Of a stretch of 64,000 nt of DNA, positions 20,537-41,502 are shown piece by piece. The translations under genes and the position numbers were made by a program. The notes beneath the pieces are model-generated. The model had not been told where the DNA came from. It worked only from the letters and a program-made list of their open reading frames with translations, and searched no databases. Source of the stretch: Gammaproteobacteria bacterium (GTDB lineage Bacteria > Pseudomonadota > Gammaproteobacteria > Pseudomonadales > Halieaceae); NCBI GenBank assembly GCA_030428835.1, contig JAUIEP010000011.1, positions 1-64,000 of the forward strand, written 5' to 3'. The number at the start of each line of letters is the position of its first letter. Positions within the stretch are counted from its first letter, which is position 1.

Positions 20537-20557
20537 AATGATTCCTCCGAAGGGGCG

Positions 20558-22953: not shown

Positions 22954-23062
22954 TCCAGGTCAGCAGAAGTAAGTGGTCTGCTGACTCTGCCATCAGATGG
23001 GGTTCACACCGGCCCCGGGACCGCGTGAATACGCACTTGCCATCGCTCGAGAGGGTAATCAC

Positions 23063-25531: not shown

Positions 25532-25616
25532 TTTTCGGTGCGAAATGACTACCTCGCCATGTTGTCGAGGGTCGAATTGCCGGCAATAATTACGCGAACG
25601 ACGGGGCAGAAATTGC

Positions 25617-26291
25617 ATGGCAAGCAGAGTCCAGAAACACCGAACCGCAAAGCGGCGGAGCCCTCGAAAAAGGGGGCGTCCGCTACAATCCGAAGAGCAG
25701 GGAATTACCGATCACATCGTAACTGTCGCGCGGGATTTATTCCTTCAGGATGGCTACAAGGGCGTATCCATGAAGCGCATCGGAGAGCAATCCCGCGTTT
25801 CTCCGGGTACGCTGTATGCTCGATTTCCCAATAAAGTAGAGCTTTTCACCGCGGTTGTTGAAAGACAAGTGGCGATATGGGAGACCGAGACACCCGCCCA
25901 CCTGGAGAAGCCGAGAGAGTCGGTTTATGACGTATTGCTCGCCGGTATTCTCGGCGTAATGGAAGCAGGTTCGCGTTCAGACGTCGCAGGGTTCGTAAGG
26001 CTCTTGACCGCCGAGGCTCGTAAGTTCCCGGAGCTGGCAGAAATCTACCATGATCATGCGATGCAGGTGGGGTTTGACGTACTGCACGAGGCCATCCTAC
26101 GCACGCCGGAGGGCATGGATATGGGACCGGCCCAGGCTAAGGAGCTTGCGCTCACCACAATCGAGGCCGTCAATGGCTGGTTGGAAAGAAATCATCTGCT
26201 GAACAACCTCGACGTAACTAGGGCTGAAAAGACTAGGGTCGCTAAGCGGATGGCACGCATTATTACCTACGGGTACAAACAATCGGCGTAG
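25617..26291 (+). CDS. TetR/AcrR-family transcriptional regulator
   Basis: 224 residues. A very basic N-terminal arm (RRSPRKRGRP) leads into a TetR HTH (ITDHIVTVARDLFLQDGYKGVSMKRIGEQSRVSPGTLYARFPNKVELF) and an all-helical ligand domain. It lies 85 bases downstream of the TonB receptor on the same strand and could repress the receptor and the divergent PQQ unit. No copy of the CTTATCGATAAG palindrome is found at its own start, which argues against it governing that set. Confidence 0.88.
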   Translation: MASRVQKHRTAKRRSPRKRGRPLQSEEQGITDHIVTVARDLFLQDGYKGVSMKRIGEQSRVSPGTLYARFPNKVELFTAVVERQVAIWETETPAHLEKPRESVYDVLLAGILGVMEAGSRSDVAGFVRLLTAEARKFPELAEIYHDHAMQVGFDVLHEAILRTPEGMDMGPAQAKELALTTIEAVNGWLERNHLLNNLDVTRAEKTRVAKRMARIITYGYKQSA

Positions 26292-26463: not shown

Positions 26464-26475
26464 CTTACCGATAAA
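26464..26475. promoter_or_regulatory. Palindrome site A (CTTACCGATAAA) upstream of oxygenase 1
   Basis: One base off the core TTATCGATAA shared with sites B, C and D. It lies 66 bases upstream of the oxygenase start, followed by AT-rich TTATTATGAT that could contain the -10 (TATGAT, 26481-26486). The -35 is not convincing. Confidence 0.55.
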
Positions 26476-26540
26476 GTTATTATGATGCGGCCGCACCCCG
26501 ACCGGCGACCGCCGTGCAGACCGCCGACAAGGAAAAAACC

Positions 26541-27626
26541 ATGTCCATGACCGAAGCCCGCAGACGGGAGCTTTCCGATTACCTCACGCCCGCAGGGCCG
26601 CCGCGCGAAATCGACCGGGTCTACAGTGAGGACCAGTTGCAGCGGCTGCTCGGCGCCGTGCGCGACCACGGCCCCTGGAAACTGATTATCGCCCAGCACT
26701 TTGCATCCGCCGACGAGTTGCTGGCCACGATGTCCGGCCCTCTGCCAGAGGGCACGGAACTGTCACTGGACTGGTTCCTGACACCAACCTTTCGCGGTTT
26801 CCTCGCCAATTATTCCGCCGCCCTTTATCCGGAACTCCACGACTGCTTTTACAACGAGCGTTTCCTGGAGCTGGTCAGGTCCTACTGGGGGGCAAAGTAC
26901 GCCAAGCCGCAGATGATGCTGTTCAATGTGAACGGCCCCGCGGGCAATACCGACCCGGGCCACCTGGATACCCCGAGCTTCCGCGGCGTGCGCTATGAGA
27001 ATTCGCCGACCTGGCTGTGCAGCGTCATGGGCAAATCCGGCCTGTTCCGCGATTACCTGATCAAGATGGCGCAGGTGATCACCTGGTTCTCCCACGACCC
27101 GGACAGTGGCTTCACCTTCTGGCCCGACGGCCCGCTGCAGCCGCCCCGACGCCTGCAAGCGCCGATCTACAACCGCGGCGTGGTGGTGCAGAACGAAATG
27201 ATGTATCACAGGGGCGAGGCCAACGGGCCCGTGGAAGAGCAGCGCCCCGCCGGGCTGGCGTTCGAGACGCTGTTCAGCGGTGATCCCGACGATGAGGACA
27301 AATGGATACTGAAGACGGGCGAGGAGGTTATCGCCCGCCACCACACCCGCGACTTACGCTTCCTGGTGCACTGGTCCGCCGAGGTCTTCGAGGACGGTGA
27401 TGAACTGAAGAAAAACATGGAAGGTACCGACAACCTCACCATCGAGCGCGCCATCGGGATGTTGATCGACGATGCCCGCGCGCAGGGCTTCGATATACCC
27501 ACGCCGACGGACCCGTTGCACGAACCGGCGTTCATCAGGGCAATCAATGCCGCTTACGACATGGGTGGGCCCGCCAGCTACCCCGAGGAAGCGCCCGTAA
27601 CGCCTTTGTATATCGACGCGGCGTGA
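26541..27626 (+). CDS. Fe(II)/2-oxoglutarate dioxygenase-like protein 1 (PhyH-like)
   Basis: 361 residues from an ATG with AAGGA eight bases ahead. No signal peptide, so cytoplasmic. The facial-triad pattern is visible: His141-x-Asp143 in GHLDTPSFRG and His223 in MMYHRGEANGP, 82 residues apart, as in phytanoyl-CoA-dioxygenase-like enzymes. The protein is paralogous over its whole length with the one at 39518 (HGPWKLI.AQHFAS, TFRGF, FWPDGP, NRGVVVQNEMMYHRGE). Each has a TATCGAT-type palindrome upstream. Substrate unknown; hydroxylation of an organic substrate ahead of beta-oxidation is inferred from the paralogue's operon. Confidence 0.68.
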   Translation: MSMTEARRRELSDYLTPAGPPREIDRVYSEDQLQRLLGAVRDHGPWKLIIAQHFASADELLATMSGPLPEGTELSLDWFLTPTFRGFLANYSAALYPELHDCFYNERFLELVRSYWGAKYAKPQMMLFNVNGPAGNTDPGHLDTPSFRGVRYENSPTWLCSVMGKSGLFRDYLIKMAQVITWFSHDPDSGFTFWPDGPLQPPRRLQAPIYNRGVVVQNEMMYHRGEANGPVEEQRPAGLAFETLFSGDPDDEDKWILKTGEEVIARHHTRDLRFLVHWSAEVFEDGDELKKNMEGTDNLTIERAIGMLIDDARAQGFDIPTPTDPLHEPAFIRAINAAYDMGGPASYPEEAPVTPLYIDAA

Positions 27627-27803
27627 CCTGCGCGTGAGTCATCGCCCACCCTGATCATACTATTCGAGCAGCGCGTCCTGCCGGCGACCGGGCTCTTGCA
27701 TCGGGAGTTCGGACAATCCCATCCACCATTGGGTCTGTGACGTCTTGCTTTTCTTCGAGGGTGGCAAGCTGCGCGTTCGTCCCGGTTCGGCAAACGGACG
27801 AAA

Positions 27804-29045
27804 TTAATCCGATACGTCGCCCATGGGTTCGCGAACCCCGATGAGTTGGCGCTTCCTGAGCCAGCTGGCCAGCAGGTCCGGCCAGGCGCCAAGGACAGGA
27901 TCCGCCAGCGCCAGGCCCTGCCCATGCCAGCCGGTACCAAATATGTGCAACTCGGCTGGCACGCCCGCGGCGACCAGCGCATCGTAGTAAGCGGTGGCAT
28001 GCCCGGGTGATACCAGCGCGTCCGTCGTGGTGTGGTAAATGAACGTCGGGGGGGTCGACGCCGTCACATTGGTAACAGGGTCGACCTCGCGCAGTACCTT
28101 CGCTCCGGGTTTGTCGCCCAGGAAGCAGGTTCGTGTGTTGTCCCTCACTTCGCCAAATCGGGTCGGCGCATACGCGAGAACCGCGAAGTCCGGCCGGCTG
28201 TCCACCTGTTCCACCGGGTCGTCCGCTTCGGGATTACCCGGCTCGAACAGCGTGGACGCCATGGCGGTCAGGTGACCCCCGGCGGAAAAACCCAGCATGC
28301 CGATCCGGTTGCGCTGGATGCCGTATTCCGCGGCATGGGCCCGCACCCAGCGCAGCGCCCGCCGGGCATCGTGCAATTGTGTTGGGTGTCGATAGCCGAC
28401 GGTGCACAGGCGATAGTTGAGTACGAAGGCCGTGATGCCATGGGCGGCCAACCAGTCGCCCACCAGTCGGCCCTCGTGGCCGGTCGCCAGCGCCTGGTAA
28501 CCACCGCCCGGCGCCACGATAACCGCGGTACCGAATGCCGTGGCGCCGTCTGGTGCAATGACCGTCACCGTCGGTGTGTGCGCCGGGCCTGCTTCGAGCG
28601 CGCCCGGTGCACCGTCGGGCCAGAGGGGCACGGTCTCCAGGTTCAGCGCCACCAGCGGGTCAACGGGCAAACCGAGGTTAGCGGTCGCACCCGGCAGAGG
28701 CGCGCTCGACAGGGCTCCCGCCGCCAGCAGCGCCGCATTGACGGCGGCAATCCGCTCGTCGGTAACCAGTGTCGGAGCGAATCGCTGCATGGCGACGAGG
28801 CTGATGGGGCGCGCCTGCTCGATGCGCTCGTTCTGCATCAGCTCCGGCAACTCCCGTTCCAGGACAGCCCTTGCGCGCGGATTGTCGAGCAAGTCACCCA
28901 TACTGTCGGCCGCCGACAGCGGTCGCAGGGTCGACGCCGCGACGGATGCAGTCTCGGTTTGTCCCAGCACCTGTTGCACCGGCCAGGTTGTTAGCCCAAG
29001 CAGCAACGACAGGGAAAGTACTGTCCAGCGCAGTACATGTTTCAT
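27804..29045 (-). CDS. Secreted alpha/beta-hydrolase (BD-FAE/acetylesterase type) with N-terminal helical module
   Basis: 413 residues with a signal peptide (SLSLLLGLTTWPVQQVLG). Residues 50-110 form a helical module (GDLLDNPRARAVLERELP ... VAMQRFAPTL) like that ending the DUF1593 proteins at 1-2 kb. The esterase domain has APGGGYQ for the oxyanion hole, GFSAGG (Ser254), Asp342 (TTDALV) and His374 (GWHGQG). The start overlaps the preceding GH106-like stop as ATGA, so the two are translationally coupled. It probably deacylates a rhamnosylated substrate in the periplasm. Confidence 0.85.
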   Translation of the reverse strand: MKHVLRWTVLSLSLLLGLTTWPVQQVLGQTETASVAASTLRPLSAADSMGDLLDNPRARAVLERELPELMQNERIEQARPISLVAMQRFAPTLVTDERIAAVNAALLAAGALSSAPLPGATANLGLPVDPLVALNLETVPLWPDGAPGALEAGPAHTPTVTVIAPDGATAFGTAVIVAPGGGYQALATGHEGRLVGDWLAAHGITAFVLNYRLCTVGYRHPTQLHDARRALRWVRAHAAEYGIQRNRIGMLGFSAGGHLTAMASTLFEPGNPEADDPVEQVDSRPDFAVLAYAPTRFGEVRDNTRTCFLGDKPGAKVLREVDPVTNVTASTPPTFIYHTTTDALVSPGHATAYYDALVAAGVPAELHIFGTGWHGQGLALADPVLGAWPDLLASWLRKRQLIGVREPMGDVSD

Positions 29046-32000
29046 CGTGGTTCTCCATATCGATAAAGCGTCACTGGCCCGAAGAGTCCAGCCGCGACGG
29101 TTTGCCCTTCGAACTCCAGCATGTTCGCGTACAGCGGGTCGCCGGCCGTGGCGCGACCGAGAAAGAGGTTGCGCAGGGGGGCGCGGACCTCGACCTCGAT
29201 GGTGTTCGTGCCGGGGCGCAGCGCCGCACCGACATCCAGCACAAACGGCGGCAGACTGGCCCGCCCGACATCCTGTCCGTTGACCGCGACGCTTGCGCTG
29301 CCCTGCACCAGCCCCAGGTCTAGCACGTAGCGGCTGCCGACGTCGGGTGTGTCCACGACGATGTTGTGACGGTAAGTTACCGGGCCGTGCACATACCGCA
29401 GTGCGTCGAGTTCACGCCAGTCCGTGAGTCCAGCCATGTGCACGTCGGCGCCGTCATACACCACCTGCCAGTCCGCGAGTGATTCGCCTTTTCCGCCCGC
29501 TGCCTTCATGGCGCCGGGGGGGACCCCGACCGCTATCGTCTCCGGCATCTCTACACCCGACACGAGGAACCGGCTCTCGAATCCTGCCACCGACAAGTGC
29601 AACGCGCCGTCGTCGGCAGTCGCGGGCCAGGCACTGCCGGACAGGGCGTCGAACCACCACAACGGCGCCTGCCCGATGCCGTAAAGCGCGAGCGTGGCGG
29701 CGTCGGGGGACTGGTTGGCGAAGAACAGTATCTCGCCGCCGTTTGCCAGCACCCTGCGCTGGCGATGTATGGTGCCGCCGTCGCGCTGGCGCAGGTTCTG
29801 TGAAGATACGGCGGCGAGTCTTTCGCGCAGATCTCCTGCCGACAGCGGCAGATGTTGCGCGCCGGCGCCCAGCAGTTCCGTCACGCCGTCGCGCACGCGC
29901 GCGTCACCCGTCGCCGCGTTGTGGAAACTACGTTGCCGGGTCGGTAGTTCACCGGCGAAGACGACTGGCACTCCGGCGTCGACGTGGGCCTGCAGCGCCG
30001 GCAGCGTTGCCGGGTCGAGCGCCTCGATGTCTGGCAGCAGGAGCGCCCTGTACGAGCCTCCCGATGCCACAAGGTGGCCAGCGGAAGCCTTGCCGCCCTG
30101 CAGGGCGTGGTCGTTCACCCACGCCCAGGTGACGCCCCGGCGATCGAGTTCATGCAGCAGGGGCTGTATGGCGTTGATCCAGTCCACCCGCGGATCGACG
30201 TGCTCGCTCGTGGCGAGCATTTTCTCCATCTGCCGCTTGCCAGCGGCCAGCGCCCCGGACTCCGCCAGAACCCGCGGCGGGTCGGCATCGGGCAGGCTGC
30301 CGTTGACCAGTGCCTCGCCGCCGGCGTCCGCGCCGCTGAACCCGTGAAAGCCCAGGAACGGGTAGTAGACGAGGACATCCACGTCCGGCGCGCCGCGGCG
30401 CAACAGCGCCTGGCTGCGCGCAATATAGGCGTTCAGTTGCGGCAGGTCGGGCCAGACGGCGGTGTTGGCCGCCGAGAAGTTGCCCGAGAAATGCGCGGGA
30501 TTCTGCGGGCCGGAGAACGGCTGCCAGCCCTCCTCGCCGAAGGCGCCGTCCTTCGCGCCGTGCCAGGTGTAGGGCGTGCCGTGGTAGACGATGTGGTTGA
30601 TGCCGGCGAGGAACAGCTTGTCCGCCGCGGCCTTCACCCGCCGCGCGGTGGGCATGTAGTCACGGTTGATCCACACGAACGACTCGGCGCTCGCCAGCGG
30701 GCGCCCGTACAGAGCGGCAGCAGACGAGGCGAACTTGAGGCCCGCGTTGGCGCCGCCCGCCCAGAGCTGCTCGGTTTCGGGAATGGTGTTGGCGCCGAGC
30801 CCGCGGATGATATCCATGTCCATGCCGTAACTCTGGCCGCGCGACGTCAGTCCGCGGCTCTCGGCCCAATGCGCCGAGGTCTCGATGAAGCGTTCTATCA
30901 CGAGGTCCGACAGTGTCTGCTGGTAGTCGTGGCGGATGCGCTCGTCCATGTCCGTCAACCTGAACTCCGGGTCGGCGTACACGCCCAGGAGTTCGCGGAA
31001 GTACATGTTGTCCACGCCCTCTATGTAGAGCGCCGGCAGCCACGGCTCCAGGTCGTAGCCGCGACGGCGTTTGAATTCTTCCAGGATGTCCTCGGCCGAC
31101 ATCCGGCGCAGGCGGAATTCCAGGCTGTCGTTGAAGATGCCGCGCAGGCCGGCGCCGTACTGGCGCGGCAGGCCGGTCGCCTCGCCGAAGGCGTGGGCGT
31201 ACTGGCCGAGCACCTGTTCCTCGCGCAGGTGATCCACGACGAAGCCCTGAGGTTGTTGCGCCGCACCCATCGGGACCTCGCCCGACGGCAGAAGGTAACT
31301 GGACACGATGTGCCACTCGCCCTCCGGCGCGTCCCAGTGCAGCACGCCATCGGTGACGCGGTCGGTCAGCACGATCACCGAAGCGGGGTCGAGCTCGAGC
31401 GTGTCGACCATGTTGAACGGATTGCGGCTGCGTTCCCCGCCGGTCACGCGCGCGGCGAGCACGCTGGCCAGGCGCGCGTGCTCGCGCGGGAAGTTCATGA
31501 AGTCCACGCCCGCAAATTCCATGATCGCGAACATGTACTCTGCCGGGCCGGGCCGCGGGCGCGGCAGTTCGACGGCAACGGTTCCGCCCCCGCGCACCGT
31601 CTCTTCCGCGTAGGCCATGATGGTGGGGCTGTCCTCCAGGTTGATCTGCGGCCCGCCCGGCGGCCAGCCGCTGAAGTTGGTGAGGTCCACATGCATGCCG
31701 ATGTCCGCGGCGTGGGCGATCAGGTCATTCAATGTTTTGTGATAGGCGGGCGTGTCGAAACTGTACACGCGCTGCATCAGCGTTTCGTTCTCCGCCACGT
31801 TGATCATGCCGCTGATGAACGGCTGGATCTCGACGCCGCCGAAGCCCGCGGCGGCGAGCTCGTCGAGTTGCGCGCGTAATACGGGCAATTCGACATCGCC
31901 GCCGGGCCACCACCAGCGAGTCCAGGGCCTCGACGGGGAGGGAAGGGTCGATATCTGCTGCCACGTCCAGAGCACTTCCGAGGTGCCGAACTGTAAGTTG

Positions 32001-32179
32001 TTGGAGTGTTGGAACGGGGTTCTATCGACGCCAAGTGCTATCGAGGGCTGTCCGGGAGGATTAGCTGGAGGCCGCATGTGATTTTCCAGCCTGTGCACCA
32101 ACCAGGTCGCACCCACTGACAGCACAATTGCCAAGACCAGGGACACGCCGGCCACTATCGCGAGTACACGTTTAGCCAT
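29042..32179 (-). CDS. Membrane-anchored GH106-like glycoside hydrolase
   Basis: 1045 residues. A single N-terminal transmembrane helix (VLAIVAGVSLVLAIVLSVGATWLV) without obvious cleavage anchors it facing the periplasm. The catalytic region begins RPWTRWWWPGGDVE and AQLDELAAAGFGGVEIQPF, equivalent to the RPRVWWHW start of the GH106 gene at 15501, and continues with YGRPLASAESFVW. A C-terminal jelly-roll (YRHNIVVDTPDVGSRYVLDL) closes it. The family points to alpha-L-rhamnosidase activity, but this copy is divergent. It is the first gene of a two-gene operon with the esterase, divergent from the beta-helix gene across palindrome site B. Confidence 0.82.
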   Translation of the reverse strand: MAKRVLAIVAGVSLVLAIVLSVGATWLVHRLENHMRPPANPPGQPSIALGVDRTPFQHSNNLQFGTSEVLWTWQQISTLPSPSRPWTRWWWPGGDVELPVLRAQLDELAAAGFGGVEIQPFISGMINVAENETLMQRVYSFDTPAYHKTLNDLIAHAADIGMHVDLTNFSGWPPGGPQINLEDSPTIMAYAEETVRGGGTVAVELPRPRPGPAEYMFAIMEFAGVDFMNFPREHARLASVLAARVTGGERSRNPFNMVDTLELDPASVIVLTDRVTDGVLHWDAPEGEWHIVSSYLLPSGEVPMGAAQQPQGFVVDHLREEQVLGQYAHAFGEATGLPRQYGAGLRGIFNDSLEFRLRRMSAEDILEEFKRRRGYDLEPWLPALYIEGVDNMYFRELLGVYADPEFRLTDMDERIRHDYQQTLSDLVIERFIETSAHWAESRGLTSRGQSYGMDMDIIRGLGANTIPETEQLWAGGANAGLKFASSAAALYGRPLASAESFVWINRDYMPTARRVKAAADKLFLAGINHIVYHGTPYTWHGAKDGAFGEEGWQPFSGPQNPAHFSGNFSAANTAVWPDLPQLNAYIARSQALLRRGAPDVDVLVYYPFLGFHGFSGADAGGEALVNGSLPDADPPRVLAESGALAAGKRQMEKMLATSEHVDPRVDWINAIQPLLHELDRRGVTWAWVNDHALQGGKASAGHLVASGGSYRALLLPDIEALDPATLPALQAHVDAGVPVVFAGELPTRQRSFHNAATGDARVRDGVTELLGAGAQHLPLSAGDLRERLAAVSSQNLRQRDGGTIHRQRRVLANGGEILFFANQSPDAATLALYGIGQAPLWWFDALSGSAWPATADDGALHLSVAGFESRFLVSGVEMPETIAVGVPPGAMKAAGGKGESLADWQVVYDGADVHMAGLTDWRELDALRYVHGPVTYRHNIVVDTPDVGSRYVLDLGLVQGSASVAVNGQDVGRASLPPFVLDVGAALRPGTNTIEVEVRAPLRNLFLGRATAGDPLYANMLEFEGQTVAAGLFGPVTLYRYGEPR

Positions 32180-32311
32180 GATTCACCAGATCGTCCTGTA
32201 CAAAAAATGAGAATTGATATTCCCGAGTCACGGGAAAAGCCGGGCAGCCGCAAACGGTGTGCCGGCAGGAAAACAGAGTACGCATCCTCGGACGGTCATT
32301 GCGTGTCCTGC

Positions 32312-32340
32312 TTGCCATTCGGCGACCGTGGGTTTATATT
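32312..32340 (+). promoter_or_regulatory. Putative promoter of the beta-helix/NTF2 operon
   Basis: TTGCCA (32312-32317), 17-base spacer, TATATT (32335-32340). The predicted transcription start falls inside palindrome site B. Confidence 0.55.
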
Positions 32341-32344
32341 TTAA

Positions 32345-32356
32345 CTTATCGATAAA
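32345..32356. promoter_or_regulatory. Palindrome site B (CTTATCGATAAA)
   Basis: Perfect core TTATCGATAA in the 200-base divergent space between the GH106-like operon and the beta-helix gene, over the predicted +1 of the rightward promoter. One site could control both directions. Confidence 0.6.
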
Positions 32357-32379
32357 TTAAATCAAGCTGGCGGTGCCGC

Positions 32380-34161
32380 ATGCATATTTGGAACACGCCC
32401 TGTCGCCTGACACATTGCCCACGATGTCAGGCGGCTGCGCACCCTGGGCTCCACCATCGGACGTTCACCTCGCTGCTGACCGCAGTGACAGTTATTTGTC
32501 TGATGCTGGGCGCCTGCACCGACTCAGAAGACAATCTACCCGCCGAGCGACCGGAATTGCGGGTGACCGACAGCCACGCGATCGGTGCTGTGGGTGACGA
32601 CGCGCTATCGCTGGTGGAGGCCTTGCAAATCGCTGGAGGATTGTTGGCTGTGGCGGAGCTTAGCAGCGCCGAACGCTTGCTGATTTCAGGTACGCCGGGG
32701 CCGGAGAGCGCAGATACAATTCGCGTGGCACTGGCGAACGGTGACCGCATCGAAGCGCCTAGCCAGACAATCCCCGACGGCCCGGAATGGTTCCCATTAT
32801 TTCCGAGTAGCAGCCTTCCGGACATTGTCGGAAACGAGGGCGATGTGCTGGAAGGGGCGGGATATACCTTCTCCAACGGTCCGGCAGACGGTCCTCTCGG
32901 AGGGCTCGGACTCGTCATCCGGAGCTCTGATTTCACCATCCAAAACTTGGTGTTTGAACGCTTTGCGGAAATGCTTTCTATCTCGCCGTCCGACGAATCC
33001 GGACTGCAAGGGATCACGATTCGCGGAAATTCGTTCCTCAACGGCGGTGGCCTTGGACTGGGTGCGACGGCAGCGAACGGCTCTCGGTCGCTATTGCGTG
33101 GCGTAAGAATATCCAACAACGAGTTCCTCGGGCCGTCTGAATTCGGCGGCAGGTTCCCTAGAAACATCCATAGCGCCATCGGCGGGGTGGCTACGCCGCT
33201 CTCTGCTCCACCTGACGAGCAGGCCAACAGGCTGGAAAACCTGACGATTTCAGGCAATCGGATTCGGGGCTATTTTGGTGCGGTACAGCTCATGGCGCTG
33301 CAGTCCTTTACGGGCAATAGCAACGGGGTCATGCGTAATATCCGGATCATCGGGAACGACATCACAATCCCGAACTACGCGGGTGATCCGGCGATTTATA
33401 TCTGGGGTGCCGTAACCCTCGGCGGCATGTCGTCGAATGCTCTCATTGAAAGTCTTGAAATTGCAGACAACGAGATCGCGGGTAGCGGTTACGTGGTCCT
33501 GGTAACAGGTGTAGAAAATGTGTCAGGACAAAATCTGCTGAGTGAGAACCACGTGATCCGCGATGTTTCCATCCACGGCAACACCATTCGTCCGGTGAAT
33601 GACTGCGGTATAGGCATACTTGTAATGTCCTCATTTACCGAAATGTCGAGTGGCAGCGCGTTGGACAACAGGGTTGAAGCCCTCGATATCAGCGCTAATG
33701 AAATTCATGATTGCGAATTGGGCATCCTGGTCACACCCATGCTGAACTGGGGAGCGGCGGGGGCAAGCATGGGGAATAGTATGGAGAACGTAACAATCAT
33801 CGAGAACAGCATCACTGGCGCACGCACTGGCATCATCGCCAGCGGCGGTACAATCCTTGCGAACGAACTCGGGCTTGAAGATTCTCCGGAGGCGACAGTA
33901 GCAGGTAACTACCTGAGGGGTCTGGAGATAAGTCGAAACAGCCTCGGTTCTACTCAGGAGGGTTTCGCGTTGTATGGGGGAGCCGCGATAGAGGCGCCTG
34001 GCAGTGTAACCCAAAATGAGCTGGTCGCTGCCCGGGCTCTTTCGAACACCGTCCCCGCCGATATTCCCCTCTGCACTGCGGCGGCGAATGGCATCGTTCG
34101 ATCCGACGCCACGGTGGAGGCGAACACGCTAGACGCCAACGAAATTGATTGCTCGCGCTAA
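32380..34161 (+). CDS. Predicted lipoprotein with right-handed beta-helix fold
   Basis: 593 residues. A signal sequence ending in the lipobox LGAC (VICLMLGACTDSEDN) predicts a lipid-anchored envelope protein; the n-region is unusually long (about 30 residues). From about residue 170 the chain is a series of rungs with the pattern I.I..N.I.G (GITIRGNSFLNG, GVRISNNEFLG, NLTISGNRIRG, NIRIIGNDI, SLEIADNEIAGSG, DVSIHGNTIRP, ALDISANEIHD, NVTIIENSITGA, GLEISRNSLG), a parallel beta-helix. Such folds are typical of polysaccharide lyases, epimerases and some pectinases, but no catalytic signature was recognised. Confidence 0.72.
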   Translation: MHIWNTPCRLTHCPRCQAAAHPGLHHRTFTSLLTAVTVICLMLGACTDSEDNLPAERPELRVTDSHAIGAVGDDALSLVEALQIAGGLLAVAELSSAERLLISGTPGPESADTIRVALANGDRIEAPSQTIPDGPEWFPLFPSSSLPDIVGNEGDVLEGAGYTFSNGPADGPLGGLGLVIRSSDFTIQNLVFERFAEMLSISPSDESGLQGITIRGNSFLNGGGLGLGATAANGSRSLLRGVRISNNEFLGPSEFGGRFPRNIHSAIGGVATPLSAPPDEQANRLENLTISGNRIRGYFGAVQLMALQSFTGNSNGVMRNIRIIGNDITIPNYAGDPAIYIWGAVTLGGMSSNALIESLEIADNEIAGSGYVVLVTGVENVSGQNLLSENHVIRDVSIHGNTIRPVNDCGIGILVMSSFTEMSSGSALDNRVEALDISANEIHDCELGILVTPMLNWGAAGASMGNSMENVTIIENSITGARTGIIASGGTILANELGLEDSPEATVAGNYLRGLEISRNSLGSTQEGFALYGGAAIEAPGSVTQNELVAARALSNTVPADIPLCTAAANGIVRSDATVEANTLDANEIDCSR

Positions 34162-34197
34162 GCGGCGACGAGAACGAAACGGTCACCGGAGAAAAAC

Positions 34198-34263
34198 ATG
34201 TCTTCCAGGCGTAACTACTTCGTCATCATTGTCTATTCGACAATCGTCTTGCTTACCACTTAA
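34198..34263 (+). CDS. 21-residue hydrophobic small ORF, in frame with the next gene
   Basis: ATG at 34198 with a well-placed GGAGA site encodes MSSRRNYFVIIVYSTIVLLT and a final Thr, then TAA at 34261-34263. The next codon is the ATG of the NTF2-like gene in the same frame. The peptide looks like the n- and h-regions of a signal peptide separated from its passenger by one stop codon. It could be a coupled leader peptide, a small membrane protein, or a nonsense-interrupted signal sequence. Confidence 0.5.
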   Translation: MSSRRNYFVIIVYSTIVLLTT

Positions 34264-34818
34264 ATGTCGATACCGACCCGCGCGAGGGAAGACTCTGAAC
34301 TGATTGCGCCAGCCGGCGGGAGTTTCCCTTCTTCGGAGGTACGCGATGCAGTAGGCAGGTATGTGCGAATGCGGGAGCAAATAGATCGCCGTGAGCGGCC
34401 GTGGACTGACATCGCCGAATTTTTCACGGCTGAGGCGGTATTTATCGACCCGGTATGGGGACGAATCGAAGGCAAGCAGGCCATTCGTGAGCTCTATGCA
34501 GAAGCAATGGCTGGCGTCGACTTCACGTTTCCCATCGATTTTACGGCCATCAATGGCAATTTTGTGATCATCAAGTGGCGCCAGGTCCTGCCAGGTGCGC
34601 GCGCGGACGGCACACCGTGGCAGCAATCGGCCGTTTCAACGCTCATCTATGCCGGAGATGGAAAGTTCCGGTACGAAGAAGATTTGATGAACGTTATCCA
34701 TGTCATGGAGGACATTCAAAGCTCGGGCTGGGTGCCCGGACCCAACTTTGTATCTCCGCCACCAAACCCCGATCGCAACTTCGACCCGCAGCCCGCCGTA
34801 CCATCTCAGCGGAAATAG
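34264..34818 (+). CDS. NTF2/SnoaL-like protein
   Basis: 184 residues. The core (VRDAVGRYVRMREQID, WTDIAEFFTAEAVFIDPVWG, IEGKQAIRELYAEAM, and strands ending STLIYAGDGKF) is a SnoaL-type cone fold; a Pro-rich tail follows. It has no ribosome site of its own and starts directly after the stop of the 21-residue ORF, so it is probably translated by coupling. It shares a transcript with the beta-helix gene and ends in a good terminator. Possible role: small isomerase/dehydratase or binding protein. If the upstream stop were read through it would be exported. Confidence 0.78.
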   Translation: MSIPTRAREDSELIAPAGGSFPSSEVRDAVGRYVRMREQIDRRERPWTDIAEFFTAEAVFIDPVWGRIEGKQAIRELYAEAMAGVDFTFPIDFTAINGNFVIIKWRQVLPGARADGTPWQQSAVSTLIYAGDGKFRYEEDLMNVIHVMEDIQSSGWVPGPNFVSPPPNPDRNFDPQPAVPSQRK

Positions 34819-34837
34819 TCGATTCGAACAATTCTAC

Positions 34838-34872
34838 GGCGGGTGCCGGTGAAAGCCGGCTCCGCCTTTTTT
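34838..34872 (+). terminator. Rho-independent terminator of the beta-helix/NTF2 operon
   Basis: Stem GGCGG (34838-34842) with CCGCC (34862-34866) outside GCCGG (34845-34849) with CCGGC (34856-34860), loop TGAAAG, then six T (34867-34872). It ends 54 bases after the NTF2-like stop. It lies in the 340-base gap 34819-35158, which otherwise holds only the next promoter and site C. Confidence 0.88.
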
Positions 34873-35004
34873 ATGGCCTCCAAACTCACACGTGCCGTGC
34901 CGGACGGCGCGCCTTGTGGCGACGCAACAGGTAGATGGTAGCGCGGCTCTAAATCTCCACGGGTGCACGGCGGCTCACGCCATGAACCGCCACATGTCCG
35001 AGGC

Positions 35005-35033
35005 TTGCATTATTCTTATCGATAAGATATATA
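35005..35033 (+). promoter_or_regulatory. Putative TonB-receptor promoter around palindrome site C
   Basis: TTGCAT (35005-35010), 17-base spacer, TATATA (35028-35033). The palindrome fills positions 5-16 of the spacer, so a bound repressor would exclude RNA polymerase. Confidence 0.6.
35015..35026. promoter_or_regulatory. Palindrome site C (CTTATCGATAAG)
   Basis: A perfect 12-base palindrome identical to site D, 133 bases upstream of the receptor start. Confidence 0.65.
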
Positions 35034-35158
35034 TTGTACGGCTGTCAGGGTCGGCCAAATTCAGAATCAGGGCTTGCTCCGTGGGGAACAGAGATAGGCT
35101 CCGCCCCAGGCCGCTGAACAATAATCAACCGCATAGACCCGCCTCGGAGGGTTCTCCC

Positions 35159-37603
35159 ATGTCAGTAAGACCACAACTCGCCGGGCCTGCTGCCCTGTTG
35201 CTAATTCTTTCCCACAACGGCGCCACTGCCCAACCTGCCGCCGCCGTCGAGGCCGCTCGCAGTGTGCTCGAAGAAGTGCTTGTGACCGCCACGCGGCGCG
35301 AGTCGAGCCTGCAGGAGGTGCCGCTGTCGGTCACCGCGCTGGACGGGGCGACCCTGGAGAAGCTGAAGTTCTTCGAGTTCGAGGACTTCGCGGATGCCGT
35401 GCCAGGGCTGTCGATGACGAATTCCGCCGGCGAGCCCGGTGTCATCGCCGTGCGCGGCGTGGGTTTCGCGCCCAACTCGTCGGCGGCGCCTGCCGTCGAT
35501 ATCTACTGGAACGAACTGCCGATTCCCGCCGTGTACGCCTTCAACAGCATCTTCGACCTGCAGCAGATGGAACTGCTGCGCGGGCCGCAGGGCACGCTGC
35601 GCGGTCGTCCCGCACCCGCCGGCGCGATCACACTCACCACGCGGCAGCCCGAGTTGGACAATGTGAACGGCGTTGTCACGGGTTCCTTCTCCGACCAGGA
35701 CGCCGTGAACATCGACGGCGCGGTCAACGTGCCGCTGGTTGAAGACGTGCTGGCGCTGCGCCTGGCCGCCATGTCCAACAACAACGAGGGACCGGGTGGC
35801 AAGACCATTAGCGGCGACAAGCCGGAAGTCGACGACAAGGCGCTGCGCGCAACGCTGCTGTGGGAACCGACCGCTGACCTCGCCGTGACGCTACTGCACC
35901 ACTACATGGAAACCGAGGTCGAGCGCTTCGACCTGGTGACGGGCAGCGGCATCGGCTACAACGGGCCGTCGATCAAGGGTGGCAGCCGCCGCGGCGTGGT
36001 GGAGGAGGTCGGCACGAACGACCAGGAAATCGCGTTCAGCTCGCTGCAGGTGAACTGGGATATGGCGGACCACCGGCTCGTCTTCATAGGCGGCTACCAG
36101 GACCTCGAGGACAAGTTCTCCGGGGACCTCGACGTCGGCAACGCCCTGCTGAACTACGTGTCGCCGCAGCGCGTGAACACGGACTTCGAGGTGACCACTG
36201 CGGAACTGCGGCTGGAGTCCACCGGCGGTGGCCGTGTCGACTACACGCTGGGTCTCTGGTACAGCGACACCGAGACCGAGACAGACGTAACGCAGTTCAA
36301 CGAGGGCGTGGGCGCTTTCGGCATTCCGGCGGACGGCACCAGCGCGCCGATCGACGATTACATTGCGGCCGTGTCGGTGTATGTCCCGACGGATTCGGAA
36401 AACATGGCGATCTTCGGCCACGTTGACTTCCACGTGACCGACCAGCTCACCATCGGCGCGGGCGCGCGCTACCTGGAGGAGACGTCCAAACGCAACAACG
36501 TGCTCGACCTCGGGCCGTTCCTCAACGCCGCGGCCGTCGCCCCCGGCGTGCCGCTCGGGGCACTGTGTCCCGACGGGCTGGCGGGCACGCTGCCGCCGGA
36601 CCCCGGTTTCCCGCTCATGTTCGTGGGTGAGACGTTCCCGGGCTACTGCGACCTGTTCCTCGACCTGCCGCCCAACGAGTTGCCCATCGACGACAAGTGG
36701 ACGGAGTGGGTATATGACATCTCGATCAGTTACGCGGCCACGGAAGACGTGAACGTGTACTTCACCGCGGCGCATTCCTGGCGCCCGCCGGGCGTGACCG
36801 TGGGCATCACGGCGCCGATGCCGGACGACGTAATCTTCGGCGAGCCGGAGGAATCCGACTCGGTGGAACTCGGTATCAAGTCGGAGTGGCTGGAGCGCCG
36901 CCTGCGCTTCAATGCCGCGGTGTACTACCAGGAGTTCGATGGTTTCATCGGCCGCTTCGAGGACATCCCCTACCTCGACGAGCCCGGCGTCAACGTGCAG
37001 GCGGGCGGCTTCACCTACAACGGCGACGCCATCGTCTACGGCCTGGAGACCGACCTGTCCTACCTGGTGACGCCGGACTGGACCGTGCAGCTCATGTACA
37101 GCTACCAGAAGGGTGAGTACGACGACGCCAGCGTGCCGTGCCGCGACACGGACTTCGACGGCCAGGCGGACAATGGCATCAACCCGTCCTTCGGCGACTG
37201 GGCGGCGCCGCGCGCGGTGGCGTTCTGCGAGTCCGACGATTCCATCTCCAACCTGCCGGACTGGAACGCCACACTGCAGTCGGAGTACATCCTGCCGCTG
37301 TCCGGGCACGACGCGGAGGCTTATGTGCGCGGCCTTGTGAACTACCAGCCGGACAACGACAACTTCGCGACCGGCTTCGAGCGCGATTCCTATACACTGC
37401 TCAACCTGTACGGCGGTGTGCGCAGCGCCAGCGGCGCGTGGGACGTCACCCTCTGGGCGAAGAACGTACTGGACGAGGACACCATACTCACGATGGGCGC
37501 TGAGGCGAATCGCGGGCAGGTTGCGTCGGGCTACGCGCCGATCAGCGTGCTGCCCGAGCGGGAAATCGGCCTGACCCTGCGCTACGCTTTCGACAGCAAC
37601 TAA
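35159..37603 (+). CDS. TonB-dependent outer-membrane receptor (palindrome regulon)
   Basis: 814 residues from the ATG at 35159 (CGGAGGG ahead); the frame is open further upstream but across the promoter. Signal sequence (LAGPAALLLILSHNGATAQ), then EEVLVTATRRESSLQEVPLSV, AVRGVGF and MELLRGPQGTLRGRPAPAGA, and a barrel ending LRYAFDSN. Residues 661-690 hold a Cys-bounded loop with DTDFDGQADNG, equivalent to that of the receptor at 23063. The VOC gene follows after 27 bases. Preceded by palindrome site C. It likely imports the substrate of the oxygenase pathway. Confidence 0.92.
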   Translation: MSVRPQLAGPAALLLILSHNGATAQPAAAVEAARSVLEEVLVTATRRESSLQEVPLSVTALDGATLEKLKFFEFEDFADAVPGLSMTNSAGEPGVIAVRGVGFAPNSSAAPAVDIYWNELPIPAVYAFNSIFDLQQMELLRGPQGTLRGRPAPAGAITLTTRQPELDNVNGVVTGSFSDQDAVNIDGAVNVPLVEDVLALRLAAMSNNNEGPGGKTISGDKPEVDDKALRATLLWEPTADLAVTLLHHYMETEVERFDLVTGSGIGYNGPSIKGGSRRGVVEEVGTNDQEIAFSSLQVNWDMADHRLVFIGGYQDLEDKFSGDLDVGNALLNYVSPQRVNTDFEVTTAELRLESTGGGRVDYTLGLWYSDTETETDVTQFNEGVGAFGIPADGTSAPIDDYIAAVSVYVPTDSENMAIFGHVDFHVTDQLTIGAGARYLEETSKRNNVLDLGPFLNAAAVAPGVPLGALCPDGLAGTLPPDPGFPLMFVGETFPGYCDLFLDLPPNELPIDDKWTEWVYDISISYAATEDVNVYFTAAHSWRPPGVTVGITAPMPDDVIFGEPEESDSVELGIKSEWLERRLRFNAAVYYQEFDGFIGRFEDIPYLDEPGVNVQAGGFTYNGDAIVYGLETDLSYLVTPDWTVQLMYSYQKGEYDDASVPCRDTDFDGQADNGINPSFGDWAAPRAVAFCESDDSISNLPDWNATLQSEYILPLSGHDAEAYVRGLVNYQPDNDNFATGFERDSYTLLNLYGGVRSASGAWDVTLWAKNVLDEDTILTMGAEANRGQVASGYAPISVLPEREIGLTLRYAFDSN

Positions 37604-37630
37604 CATAGGCGGGAGCAAAGGAGTCGAGCA

Positions 37631-38047
37631 ATGGCAGACGGGTTTTCACCGGCGAGTAAAGCCGACGCGCACTTTTCTTTCACCAAGCTGGTCGTCGACG
37701 ACCTGGAGAAGTGTCATGCGTTTTACACGCAGGTGTGTGGGATGGTGGAGCAGTTCCGCTACGAGAGCGAAATCGGGGAGCGGGCGATCAGCGAAATCTG
37801 CTACGCGCCCACGGCCGAGGGCGGCGCATCGTTCACCCTGCTCAAGTACCTGAACAGCGACAAACCCGACAACGGTGAGTTGATACTCGGCATCACCACG
37901 AATGACCTCGACGCCTTCATCGCGCGCGCGCAGGAAGCGGGCGGCCGCATCGCCGATCCGGTGCGCGACATGCCCGACCTCGGCCTGCGTGTTGCGTTTT
38001 TGGAAGACTGTGAAGGCCACCTCATTGAAGTGGTGCAGATGAATTGA
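37631..38047 (+). CDS. VOC-family (glyoxalase/dioxygenase superfamily) protein
   Basis: 138 residues with paired beta-alpha-beta-beta-beta modules: FTKLVVDDLEKCHAFYTQVCGM at the start and GLRVAFLEDCEGHLIEVVQ at the end, the latter carrying the Glu metal ligand and the DPxGxxxE-like turn. VOC enzymes use a divalent metal for lyase, isomerase, epimerase or dioxygenase chemistry. AGGAG precedes the ATG and the gene is in the receptor's operon. It converges on tetR 12 bases away. Reaction unknown. Confidence 0.85.
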   Translation: MADGFSPASKADAHFSFTKLVVDDLEKCHAFYTQVCGMVEQFRYESEIGERAISEICYAPTAEGGASFTLLKYLNSDKPDNGELILGITTNDLDAFIARAQEAGGRIADPVRDMPDLGLRVAFLEDCEGHLIEVVQMN

Positions 38048-38059
38048 TACTGCGCGGTC

Positions 38060-38752
38060 CTAGCCCCCGTCGAGCCCCGCCTGCCGCTCGACCCCCGCGA
38101 TGAGTTGCTCGAATACCGAGGCCATGATCTCATCCTCGTCGAGCGCGTCCATGGGCAGAGTCTTGATGACTTGCTGTTGCTCGGCGCTCAACCCCATGTC
38201 TTCCAGCGGCAGGTAGACCTTGGCCTGCATGTATTCACTGCTGCGCGCCACGACATTGATGAGTGTGATCGCGCCCGTCACGAAGATGTAAGCCGCCCGG
38301 GCGAGCGCCTTGCCACGCAGGCCCAGTTCATCGTGCAGGATCAGCGTCACCGGCAGCGTCACCTTGAGCCAGCCCGCCGAAGTGTGGCCATTCACACCCA
38401 CGACGTGGGGCATCACCGGGTAGCGCGCGGCGTGCTCCTTCAGCGCACAGAGCCAGGCGCGCAGCGTGTCCTGCCAGGTTGCTCCCGGTTCTGGCATTTC
38501 GAACAGGCCGCAGATCTCATCGGACACCGCCTCGAGCAGGTCGTCGCGGCTGGCGAAATAGTTGTAGATCGCCATGGACGTCGTGCCGAGTTCGGCGGCG
38601 AGCGTCTTGATCTGGAAATCCTCGACCTGCGTTGTCGCGAGGATGCGCAGGGAGGTCGCGATGACTTCCTCCCGCGAGATGCGCGGCGGGCGGCCGCGGC
38701 CGCGCTTGGCTGGTTGCTCGACTTGCGTTGCTGGTTTTTTCTGGCTGGACAT
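38060..38752 (-). CDS. TetR-family regulator, candidate repressor of the palindrome regulon
   Basis: 230 residues. A basic leader with AT-hook-like RGRGRPPR, then a TetR HTH (REEVIATSLRILATTQVEDFQIKTLAAELGTTSMAIYNYFASRDDLLEAV) and a helical sensor domain. It lies in the middle of the units that carry the TTATCGATAA palindrome, and a degenerate copy (TTATCGCAAA) sits 8 bases upstream of its own start. This location makes it the best candidate to bind the site; the inference is positional. Confidence 0.85.
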   Translation of the reverse strand: MSSQKKPATQVEQPAKRGRGRPPRISREEVIATSLRILATTQVEDFQIKTLAAELGTTSMAIYNYFASRDDLLEAVSDEICGLFEMPEPGATWQDTLRAWLCALKEHAARYPVMPHVVGVNGHTSAGWLKVTLPVTLILHDELGLRGKALARAAYIFVTGAITLINVVARSSEYMQAKVYLPLEDMGLSAEQQQVIKTLPMDALDEDEIMASVFEQLIAGVERQAGLDGG

Positions 38753-38759
38753 GTGTTTG

Positions 38760-38769
38760 TTATCGCAAA
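38760..38769. promoter_or_regulatory. Degenerate palindrome half-site at tetR start
   Basis: TTATCGCAAA matches the core TTATCGATAA at 8 of 10 positions, with the left half intact. Position immediately upstream of the tetR ATG would suit autoregulation. One of several explanations; may be chance. Confidence 0.35.
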
Positions 38770-38831
38770 GCTGTACGACGCCTGGCGTCGAGGTAGACCG
38801 GGAACGAAACCGAGGCGCCCGGGTTCACGCC

Positions 38832-39101
38832 TCAGGAAGGGTCGCCGGTCACGGCGTCCTTCCTGCTGGACCTCTCGGCAGCCCGCTCTTCCAATCGCTC
38901 GGCCAGCCACACTTTGATAATAGACTGGCGAGTGACGCCCAGACGCCCTGCCTCACGATCCAGTGACTCGATCATCCAGGTGGGAAAGTCGACGTTTACC
39001 CTGCGCTGCTCCTGGTTCGGTCGGCGCGCCTTCTCGAGGTCGAGATTGGCAACTACGGCTTTACCCTGGTCGAACTTCTCGTCAAAACTTTTAGCTTTCA
39101 T
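38832..39101 (-). CDS. brnA: BrnA-family antitoxin
   Basis: 89 residues from MKAKSFDEKFD; three residues upstream in frame are unlikely. The family core is clear: RRPNQEQRRVNVDFPTW, then ESLDREAGRLGVTRQSIIKV(W), a ribbon-helix-helix DNA-binding domain. It neutralises BrnT and represses the operon. Its start overlaps the end of brnT by 11 bases, the standard toxin-first order of BrnT/BrnA. Confidence 0.93.
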   Translation of the reverse strand: MKAKSFDEKFDQGKAVVANLDLEKARRPNQEQRRVNVDFPTWMIESLDREAGRLGVTRQSIIKVWLAERLEERAAERSSRKDAVTGDPS

Positions 39102-39354
39102 ACAGCTCAATCTCCTCGTCCCTGGAACGTCGGACAGAAATAATGCGAATCGCGCCGGCCCTGTAGGTGATCACGGCAGACCAGTGCTTTGACCCGATAC
39201 TGCCTATGACAAGATAGCGGGGCTCATCTTCAATCCTGGCCGGAATTTCGAGAAGATCGGGGTCATGCCAGAGCGCCTGCGCATCGACGAAGTCGATCCC
39301 GTGCTTTGCCAGGTTGGATGCGCTCTTTTGCTCGTCATACTCGAAATCGGGCAT
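39091..39354 (-). CDS. brnT: BrnT-family ribonuclease toxin
   Basis: 87 residues from the ATG at 39354 (MPDFEYDEQKSASNLAKHG), the normal BrnT start; an in-frame extension upstream crosses the operator. Further family motifs are DPDLLEIPAR, RYLVIGSIGSKHWSAVIT and IRIISVRRSRDEE. BrnT is a RelE-fold endoribonuclease that halts translation. It is followed by brnA. Confidence 0.94.
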   Translation of the reverse strand: MPDFEYDEQKSASNLAKHGIDFVDAQALWHDPDLLEIPARIEDEPRYLVIGSIGSKHWSAVITYRAGAIRIISVRRSRDEEIELYES

Positions 39355-39382
39355 GGTATAAAAAATATACCTTTTTGGGTAT
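39355..39382. promoter_or_regulatory. brnTA operator with alternating half-sites
   Basis: GGTATA-AAAAA-TATACC (39355-39371) is a perfect inverted repeat directly upstream of brnT, and a third half-site GGTAT (39378-39382) pairs with ATACC (39367-39371). Likely BrnA binding sites. Confidence 0.5.
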
Positions 39383-39454
39383 TGGCGCAATGGTTGGACC
39401 AGGGCTTCCAGCCCCGCAAACTCACCGGGGCACAAGGATGCAGACCGGTCCCGA

Positions 39455-39483
39455 TTCATTTTAACTTATCGATAAGGTATATT
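39455..39483 (+). promoter_or_regulatory. Putative oxygenase-2 operon promoter around palindrome site D
   Basis: TTCATT (39455-39460, weak), 17-base spacer, TATATT (39478-39483). The palindrome fills spacer positions 5-16, exactly as at site C. Confidence 0.55.
39465..39476. promoter_or_regulatory. Palindrome site D (CTTATCGATAAG)
   Basis: Perfect 12-base palindrome identical to site C, 42 bases upstream of the oxygenase 2 start. Confidence 0.65.
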
Positions 39484-39517: not shown

Positions 39518-40579
39518 GTGTCCGAGGCAATGTCCAGCCACTTCCGCCCCGTCGGCGAACCGCTCGTCGTGGACGGCGCCTACCGCGACGACCAGCACGC
39601 GCGCCTGCTGCAAGCGGTGCGCGACAACGGCCCCTGGAAGCTCATCCTGGCGCAGCACTTCGCATCGGTCGAGGAGCTGATCGCGACGATGTCCGGCGCC
39701 ATGCCCGAGGGCGTCACGCCCACGCTCGACATGTTCCTCACGCCGGCTTTCCGCGGCTTCTTCGCCGAACAGGGCGTGTGCAAGCATCCCGAACTGGAAG
39801 ACTGTTTCTATAACAGCGACTTCATGGCGCGCACCCGCGCCTACTGGAACGCGCAGTACGTGCGCCCGGAGCAACTGATGTTCAACATCCAGGGCCCGGC
39901 GGACAACCTCGACCCCGGCCACCTCGACGCCGTGACGTTTCGCGGCACGCACAGTCGCAGCACGCCGATCTGGCTGATGAACATCATGGCCAAGTCAGGC
40001 CTGTTCCAGGACTGGCTGTTGAAGAAAGCGCAGGTCATCACCTGGTTCTATAAAGGCGAGGTCGGCGGCGGCTTCACCTACTGGCCGGATGGACCGCACG
40101 GCCAGCCCAGGCGCATCGCCGCGCCCATGTGGAACCGCGGCGTGGTGGTGCAGAACGAGATGATGTACCACCGCGGCGAGCCCAACGGCCCGGTCGAGAT
40201 GCGTCACCCCGAGGGGCTGGACCTGCACTCGCTGATCGAGGCCGACCCCGATGATGCCACCGGCTGGCGCATCCGCACCGACGACCGGGTCATACAGCAC
40301 ATACCCGAACAGGAGATCCGCTTCCTCGTGCACTGGGGCGCCGAGGTGTACGAGGATCTCGACGAGATGAAAAAAGTGATGGACCACACCGACGACCTGG
40401 ATACGCAGCGCATCGTCGACATCTTTATGGCCGATCTCAAGCAGCGCGGCATCCAGTGCGATGAGCCCGCCGACCCACTGCACGACCAGGCCTTCATCAT
40501 GCAGCTCGTGGACGTGTACGATATCGGCGCGCCCAGCATCTACCCGCCCGAGGCGCCGAGTCCGCTGCAGGCGGCCTGA
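39518..40579 (+). CDS. Fe(II)/2-oxoglutarate dioxygenase-like protein 2 (PhyH-like)
   Basis: 353 residues from GTG at 39518 with GGGAG seven bases ahead. Full-length paralogue of the protein at 26541 with the same putative metal triad: His135-x-Asp137 (GHLDAVTFRG) and His218 (MMYHRGEPNGP). It heads a five-gene operon with enoyl-CoA hydratase, two acyl-CoA dehydrogenases and an SDR (53-base gap to the next start), which places it in catabolism of an acyl-CoA-linked or lipid-like compound. Promoter contains palindrome site D. Substrate unknown. Confidence 0.7.
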   Translation: MSEAMSSHFRPVGEPLVVDGAYRDDQHARLLQAVRDNGPWKLILAQHFASVEELIATMSGAMPEGVTPTLDMFLTPAFRGFFAEQGVCKHPELEDCFYNSDFMARTRAYWNAQYVRPEQLMFNIQGPADNLDPGHLDAVTFRGTHSRSTPIWLMNIMAKSGLFQDWLLKKAQVITWFYKGEVGGGFTYWPDGPHGQPRRIAAPMWNRGVVVQNEMMYHRGEPNGPVEMRHPEGLDLHSLIEADPDDATGWRIRTDDRVIQHIPEQEIRFLVHWGAEVYEDLDEMKKVMDHTDDLDTQRIVDIFMADLKQRGIQCDEPADPLHDQAFIMQLVDVYDIGAPSIYPPEAPSPLQAA

Positions 40580-40632
40580 ACACACAACGCACACACTGCG
40601 CCGGGTACGCCCGGCAGCGCGAGGTATTGCCC

Positions 40633-41463: not shown

Positions 41464-41502
41464 GCACGGGGCAAACACACTTTTCTTCAAGCGGTAAACC
41501 TT

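Follow-up and report, generated by a model that had tools for sequence, protein, structure and literature searches.

The 64,000-nucleotide stretch analyzed here (hereinafter, the window), from contig JAUIEP010000011.1 of a gammaproteobacterium of the family Halieaceae, contains four palindromic sites that span 13 kb, share a core sequence and lie upstream of two paralogous oxygenase genes, a gene for a TonB-dependent receptor and, between divergent units, a lipoprotein-like gene and a GH106-like/esterase gene pair. The sites are rare in the genome and recur ahead of catabolic genes in relatives, and close homologues of a TetR-type protein encoded among them occur in the family exactly where the oxygenase does. 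We conclude that this is a real, compact and conserved regulon, probably of the TetR type. The binding of the TetR protein to the sites, the ensuing repression and induction, and the class of the substrate, which would be of steroid type and possibly glycosylated, are predictions from the sequences compared here.

Palindromic sites in the window and in the genome

A scan of the window for the core, TTATCGATAA, detected exact copies at 32346, 35016 and 39466 and a copy with a single mismatch at 26465; at 35015 and 39465, the core is part of the perfect 12-base palindrome CTTATCGATAAG. With up to one mismatch allowed, the window contains seven matches (three exact and four with one mismatch) versus a mean of 0.26 in 100 shuffles, so the shared core reported in a preliminary description of this sequence is confirmed and exceeds the chance expectation. 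At the sites at 26464, 32345, 35015 and 39465, 11 to 12 of the 12 flanking bases are A or T; in the other one-mismatch copies (29057, 59445 and 60172), 5 to 7 of the 12 are.

Putative operator 1 (CTTACCGATAAA, 26464-26475), with two mismatches to the perfect 12-mer and 11 A/T bases among its 12 flanking positions, lies 66 bp ahead of the start of oxygenase 1. Putative operator 2 (CTTATCGATAAA, 32345-32356), with all 12 flanking bases A or T, is located between divergent units, 166 bp from the minus-strand GH106-like/esterase pair and 24 bp from the first ATG of the lipoprotein-like gene on the plus strand. In putative operators 3 (35015-35026) and 4 (39465-39476), both perfect, the core lies inside the spacer of the promoter-like sequences TTGCAT-N17-TATATA and TTCATT-N17-TATATT, respectively, the latter being the apparent promoter of oxygenase 2. 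On the opposite strand from operator 4, brnT begins 108 bp on, followed by a brnA-like gene and then by the TetR gene. No strand is assigned to the operators.

In the 5.23-Mb genome of the same bacterium, exact TTATCGATAA is found five times and a control pattern once; with one mismatch, the counts are 54 and 26, and the genomic contexts were inspected for part of these copies. Three of the exact copies are in the promoters of the cluster whereas the remaining two fall within apparent genes, one of Rieske type in C199 and one for a TonB receptor in C264, with both contexts and names assigned by eye. Because outside the window the exact core occurs only in apparent genes, the regulon appears to be a single 13-kb cluster, not the scattered one that had been proposed.

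The pattern CTTAYNNRTAAR, which was drawn up after the cluster sites had been seen, occurs at nine distinct places in the genome, four of them within the cluster, and the corresponding binomial probability of about 5e-9 is hence post hoc. Among the nine, only the four cluster sites have at least 11 A/T bases in the 12 flanking positions, and the remaining five have at most seven. Outside the cluster, the pattern covers the start of what looks like a TonB-receptor gene (C311:1404), overlaps the end of an open reading frame (ORF) in C43, is contained within an ORF in C168 and may be intergenic at C229:35314. Exact CTTATNNATAAG is present four times in this genome, twice in the cluster. As judged from these scans and from the alignment described below, the core element is CTTAYNNRTAAG embedded in a 24-bp A/T-rich block, with conserved half-sites and two central bases that vary in relatives; the exact CG-centered core is, by the same comparison, not the conserved part of the element.

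Conservation of the element in relatives

Regions around homologues of the oxygenase or the TetR protein were taken from seven Halieaceae relatives and from G067, a genome of another family. When 26 sites of seven genomes are aligned (all listed sites of the relatives and the four window sites), the core is bordered on each side by six A/T-rich positions with a sharp edge; these flanks were outside the search rule and have no clear sequence. In six genomes (G013, G016, G031, G033, G043 and G175), sites lie upstream of a flavin monooxygenase gene, and sites in relatives also precede genes for a TonB receptor, a VOC protein, oxygenases and an acyl-CoA ligase as well as, in G175, a GH106-like gene. 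The motif had already been fixed when the G175 genome was examined; four sites were found there, preceding the genes for the flavin monooxygenase and the GH106-like protein and an oxygenase pair. As a congener of G031, G175 provides only a partly independent test.

In the 250-bp upstream regions of homologues of the cluster genes, CTTAT-N2-ATAAG with at most one mismatch was found in 25 of 116 cases, compared to five of 116 for the runner-up among 160 half-sites of equal A/T content (four A/T bases of five); subtraction of the 15 window genes leaves 21 of 101. These 116 genes do not count as independent cases, and clusters that had already been seen supplied part of the query list. In the same test, none of the 36 homologues of five other cluster genes in the query list had a site. 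The anticipated conservation ahead of orthologues is borne out for the two half-sites but not for the exact CG-centered core. The upstream-region test replaced a coding versus intergenic count over the window and 19 loci (12 sites in 31,079 intergenic bases and seven in 373,392 coding bases) because that count was distorted by ORFs extended at the 5' end, the site at 35015 itself being called coding.

Exact CTTAT-N2-ATAAG was observed 10 times versus 0.05 expected from 20 local dinucleotide shuffles, and ranked third of 2314 motifs with expectations floored at 0.5. The first rank belonged to CGCCG-N4; the motif in the second, CAGGTNNNNACCTG, was rejected given that 10 of its 12 copies are inside oxygenase genes and represent a conserved codon stretch. 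Exact CTTATNNATAAG is confined to the cluster regions in G002 (3/3), G016 (1/1), G033 (1/1) and G031 (2/2), and four copies are present in five congeners that have neither the oxygenase nor the close TetR.

In the relatives (L112-L114, L061, L063, L054-L058 and L164), the module under the operator comprises a hydrolase, a quinone oxidoreductase, a flavin monooxygenase, short-chain dehydrogenases, a Dabb protein and a ligase.

A TetR-type candidate regulator

The best candidate for the regulator of the four operators appears to be the TetR-type repressor encoded on the minus strand at 38060-38752, in which the only Pfam match is to TetR_N (PF00440, 27.9 bits, cut-off 24). Its structure model, of moderate confidence (pLDDT 74.6), has the all-helical TetR fold, with Foldseek matches to PamR2 (4.4e-6), SimR (4.6e-6), ActR and TetR(D), including the DNA-bound SimR structure 3zql. 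Homologues of this protein were detected in 19 of 140 family genomes at E 1e-20 and fall into a close group (at most 1.8e-38) and the rest (at least 5.8e-29). With the cut-off placed at this gap, the close group is represented in eight of the 140 genomes, which are exactly those that contain the oxygenase at E 1e-40; this co-occurrence lends computational support to the earlier suggestion that a single regulator, this TetR protein, serves the shared putative operator. In a 96-genome sample that also spans the order, G067 was added to both lists, and nine further genomes had weaker oxygenase matches only (1.4e-47 to 1.1e-17).

In the region of the recognition helix, the window protein contains GTTSMAIYNYFASR and the others DTVSMALYNYFPSR, with YTYF in G067; T57, S59, M60, A61, Y63, Y65, F66, S68 and R69 are invariant in nine TetR sequences. 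In G002, a perfect operator lies ahead of a TetR-oxygenase operon, and in G016, a site with two mismatches precedes the TetR gene.

In the window, the TetR gene is separated from operator 4 by brnT and the brnA-like ORF (38832-39357), which look like an insertion into the transcription unit of the regulator. The brnT product matches PF04365 and the brnA-like ORF was named by eye; since both are on the strand of the TetR gene, a transcript starting at operator 4 could include the latter.

Genes of the cluster

The genes named in the preliminary description are all present by Pfam and ORF checks. Oxygenase 1 (26541-27626, plus strand), probably of the Fe(II)/2-oxoglutarate type given the fold of its paralogue, is followed on the minus strand by an esterase (27804-29045; BD-FAE/Abhydrolase_3, 90.9 bits, cut-off 26.8) and a GH106-like protein (29042-32179; a partial match to PF17132, 164.3 bits, cut-off 29), which has orthologues in the clusters of relatives. 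The plus-strand unit downstream of operator 2 encodes a repetitive lipoprotein-like protein (32380-34161), previously described as a beta-helix protein and without a Pfam match above the cut-off, and a SnoaL-like protein of the NTF2 fold (34264-34818; 38.4 bits, cut-off 27). Operator 3 precedes the plus-strand genes for the TonB-dependent receptor (35159-37603; PF00593 and PF07715) and a VOC/glyoxalase-fold protein (37631-38047; PF00903). Operator 4 is followed, also on the plus strand, by oxygenase 2 (39530-40579), an enoyl-CoA hydratase/isomerase (40627-41463), two acyl-CoA dehydrogenases (41503-42591 and 42607-43833) and a short-chain dehydrogenase (43849-44628), which, judging by the spacing, would be the last gene of the operon. 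The ORF at 40461-41513 is not a gene but an arginine-rich shadow frame without a Pfam match; this region is really occupied by the end of the oxygenase 2 gene and by the enoyl-CoA hydratase gene.

The two oxygenases have no Pfam match at E 0.01, and oxygenase 1 has no NCBIfam match; no PDB sequence was matched at E 1. The model of oxygenase 2 (pLDDT 88.1) has a double-stranded beta-helix fold, with the best match to PHD2 (9.5e-6), followed by MysH and AlkB among others, at a query TM of only about 0.3. H131, D133 and H214, which are invariant in 17 oxygenase sequences, are likely to be the iron ligands of an HxD...H motif.

Proposed mechanism and alternatives

In a consensus scan of 31 orientations, the spacer of the best sigma-70-like match contained the core in 11, and the match overlapped the core in another 14. 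The clearest cases, in which TTGACA is followed by a spacer of 16 or 17 bp with the core inside it, precede the monooxygenase of G013, G031 and G175. Such positions of the core in or over promoter-like matches fit steric repression, as far as consensus matches can tell. We propose that the palindromes are operators of the single TetR-type repressor encoded at 38060-38752, a dimer of which would bind the 24-bp A/T-rich element over each target promoter and block transcription until released by a small molecule that is formed from the substrate after import. Release would switch on a local catabolic regulon that includes the TonB receptor, for uptake, the two oxygenases and the enoyl-CoA hydratase/acyl-CoA dehydrogenase/short-chain dehydrogenase operon; either the lipoprotein-like unit or the GH106-like/esterase pair would probably belong to it as well. 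Taken as a whole, one TetR repressor with shared operators and an induced local catabolic regulon seems to us quite a probable explanation.

Several observations weigh against it. The best promoter-like match was away from the core in six of the 31 orientations, and the scan had no shuffle control. A site with at most one mismatch lies within 250 bp of only one of nine TetR homologues (that of G002), there is none near the TetR gene of the window, and the window protein is only about 33-40% identical to the other homologues. Within families, sites were found for 3/8 homologues of oxygenase 1, 2/12 of oxygenase 2, 3/11 of the VOC protein, 4/7 of receptor 2, 6/11 of the monooxygenase and 2/6 of the GH106-like protein; operon-internal position accounts for some but not all of the members without a site. 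G067 has TetR and oxygenase homologues, yet none of its 12 genes has a site, and exact CTTATNNATAAG is absent from this genome as well as from G013 and G043. Exact TTATCGATAA in relatives is mostly outside the clusters, with 1/12 copies inside in G002 and 0/6, 0/3 and 0/6 in the fetched regions of G016, G033 and G043, respectively; the looser pattern HTTAYNNRTAAR is not enriched genome-wide. Finally, a further site in the same genome as the window, C229:35314, may be intergenic. At that place (L120:1501-1530), CTTACTCATAAA runs straight into ATTATCGGTAATTTTTTA, and no ORF of the stretch looks coding; this could be a site of this or another regulator.

Conceivably, the sites are bound by a regulator encoded elsewhere, with the 38060-38752 protein being a mere neighbor, as might be suggested by the lack of a site near its gene in the window and by G067, which has the TetR homologue without the motif. 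We regard this as unlikely because the close TetR homologue and the oxygenase co-occur exactly and because, when ORFs from the regions of G013 and G031 were compared, that of the TetR protein had a match in the window and in all seven other genomes tested, whereas an AraC-like ORF of G013 (so labeled by eye) matched itself only. Another TetR-family protein, encoded at 25617-26291, adjoins operator 1 and could be the regulator instead, but it has no homologue at threshold in the fetched clusters of the seven relatives that have the operator, and only one weak match in G067. A homologue of this protein (38% identity) accompanies the GH106/Abhydrolase_10/pyrroloquinoline quinone (PQQ)-dehydrogenase/TonB-receptor block on two Sphingobium plasmids, the same arrangement as in the window; given this synteny, it more likely serves that block, and its role as the regulator of the four sites is distinctly improbable.

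The proximity of the 39465 palindrome to brnT, 108 bp away, raises the possibility that it is an autoregulatory operator of the brnTA toxin-antitoxin pair. We give this very little credence given that the same element lies ahead of three other units of the window and of catabolic genes in seven relatives, and that no brnTA was noticed beside the sites of relatives, although no search aimed at brnTA was made. Equally hard to believe is a chance likeness of promoter sequences without any shared regulator: the sites do lie in A/T-rich promoters of G/C-rich genomes, and their flanks are A/T without a clear sequence, but other half-sites with the same A/T content precede no more than five of the 116 homologues (versus 25), and the dinucleotide shuffles predict far fewer exact copies (0.05) than the 10 observed.

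The class of substrate

The common substrate, which the preliminary description could not match to any described pathway, can be narrowed, by inference only, to the steroid type. A shared substrate of this type, perhaps a glycoside, is our leading guess; it is suggested by the steroid-type genes beside oxygenase homologues in a mycobacterium and by homologues in Sphingobium from tomatine-treated soil. In a Mycolicibacterium locus (L053), the oxygenase is encoded near a 3-ketosteroid dehydrogenase (KstD, 1093.6 bits, cut-off 793) and a KshA_C protein (305.4 bits). Homologues of the oxygenase are found on plasmids in 22 records, 15 from Sphingobium and five from Novosphingobium, and the best of the 15 plasmid matches listed is from Novosphingobium sp. 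ES2-1, which is itself listed with an EdcR homologue (PMC8700777). The plasmid matches listed also include Sphingobium TomTYG65, TomTYG72 and TomMM15. The best plasmid matches of the window GH106 protein at 15501-19007 (54% identity) are in Sphingobium TomTYG65 and TomMM15, with the same neighbors, and in TomMM15, homologues of the VOC protein and the flavin monooxygenase come after a TetR homologue (35%). Growth on cholesterol has been described for a Halieaceae isolate (PMC5790920).

Other facts speak against a steroid substrate. The monooxygenase module seen in relatives is missing from the window cluster, and the best match to the flavin monooxygenase in the same genome is 43% identical, with no site at one mismatch or less near any of the three best; no KstD or KshA was found among the 31 window proteins scanned against Pfam, the window and its genome not having been searched otherwise; and the Sphingobium plasmids in question bear many other catabolic genes.

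Proteins of the oxygenase family are encoded near ketosteroid-dehydrogenase-type flavoproteins in Mycolicibacterium (L053) and in Caulobacter (L044), where the KstD match is below the model cut-off. Upstream of the cluster, the block at 15501-26291 encodes a true GH106 rhamnosidase (894 bits), an Abhydrolase_10 protein, a PQQ-dependent dehydrogenase with cytochrome c, a TonB receptor and TetR; it is conserved in Sphingobium TomMM15 and TomTYG65, where its plasmid-borne counterparts are 38-57% identical.

Relationship to known systems

SimR, ActR and TetR(D), the closest solved folds to the 38060-38752 protein, control antibiotic export or resistance; the identity is about 20%, and the sequence match to SimR covers the DNA-binding part. 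KstR and KstR2 of the actinobacterial cholesterol genes, which are named in PMC8700777, are likewise TetR repressors of steroid catabolic genes and have palindromic operators, although the NCBIfam KstR model does not match the 38060-38752 protein at E 0.01. EdcR, the TetR repressor of the estradiol operons of Caenibius tardaugens, is similarly encoded beside a catabolic cluster and has a palindromic operator that overlaps promoter boxes in several operons, with only partial conservation at the edcR promoter itself, but the proposed operator, TnnCnnTACnAnTnGTAnnGnnA, differs from CTTAYNNRTAAG (compared by eye with the 26 aligned sites), and EdcR has a TetR_C_11 C-terminal domain whereas the window protein matches TetR_N only (PMC8700777 for EdcR).

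Tomato-associated Sphingobium catabolizes steroidal saponins, with SpGH106-1 removing rhamnose from steroidal glycosides; the source names TomTYG65, TomTYG72, TomTYG74 and TomMM15, of which TomTYG65, TomTYG72 and TomMM15 appear as sequenced isolates (PMC10653915). These four strains have plasmid-borne homologues of the TetR protein encoded at 38060-38752 and/or of oxygenase 1 or GH106. The Sphingobium GH106 homologue is at most a candidate for SpGH106-1, and the main text of that source does not mention TetR, dioxygenase or Baeyer (PMC10653915). The TomMM15 stretches with these genes (L167 and L168) have no CTTAT-type site at one mismatch or less, and L169 and L170 have one each; a search for exact palindromes produced nothing convincing in three stretches of G067 or in one upstream stretch from Sphingobium. 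Upstream of the Sphingobium TetR homologue (L167:11890-11925), single CTTAT and ATAAG half-sites are seen by eye about 12 bp apart, versus the 2-bp spacing here.

Among the matches listed in a literature search with the 12-mer and the 10-mer, judged by title, there was no such operator or regulator, and no described regulator of a steroid-type pathway in Halieaceae was found in the literature searched. The kind of system is well known; as far as our searches show, its regulator, operator, oxygenase clade and inducer are uncharacterized.

Implications

Through the element, genes with no other connection, among them those of an oxygenase clade that no Pfam family matches, are linked to one testable switch and, thereby, to a single substrate. 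A repressor that has a defined operator and acts on few targets lends itself to a direct assay, and the ligand that releases it would point to the compound. Tentatively, and with a good deal of doubt, we suggest that a putative TetR operator/regulator pair not yet described commands an exchangeable module for sugar-bearing compounds of the steroid or triterpenoid type, with an as yet unnamed clade of Fe(II)/2-oxoglutarate oxygenases at its head. This module may be common to Halieaceae and to Sphingobium from tomatine-treated soil, with rewired operators, and its inducer would identify the substrate.

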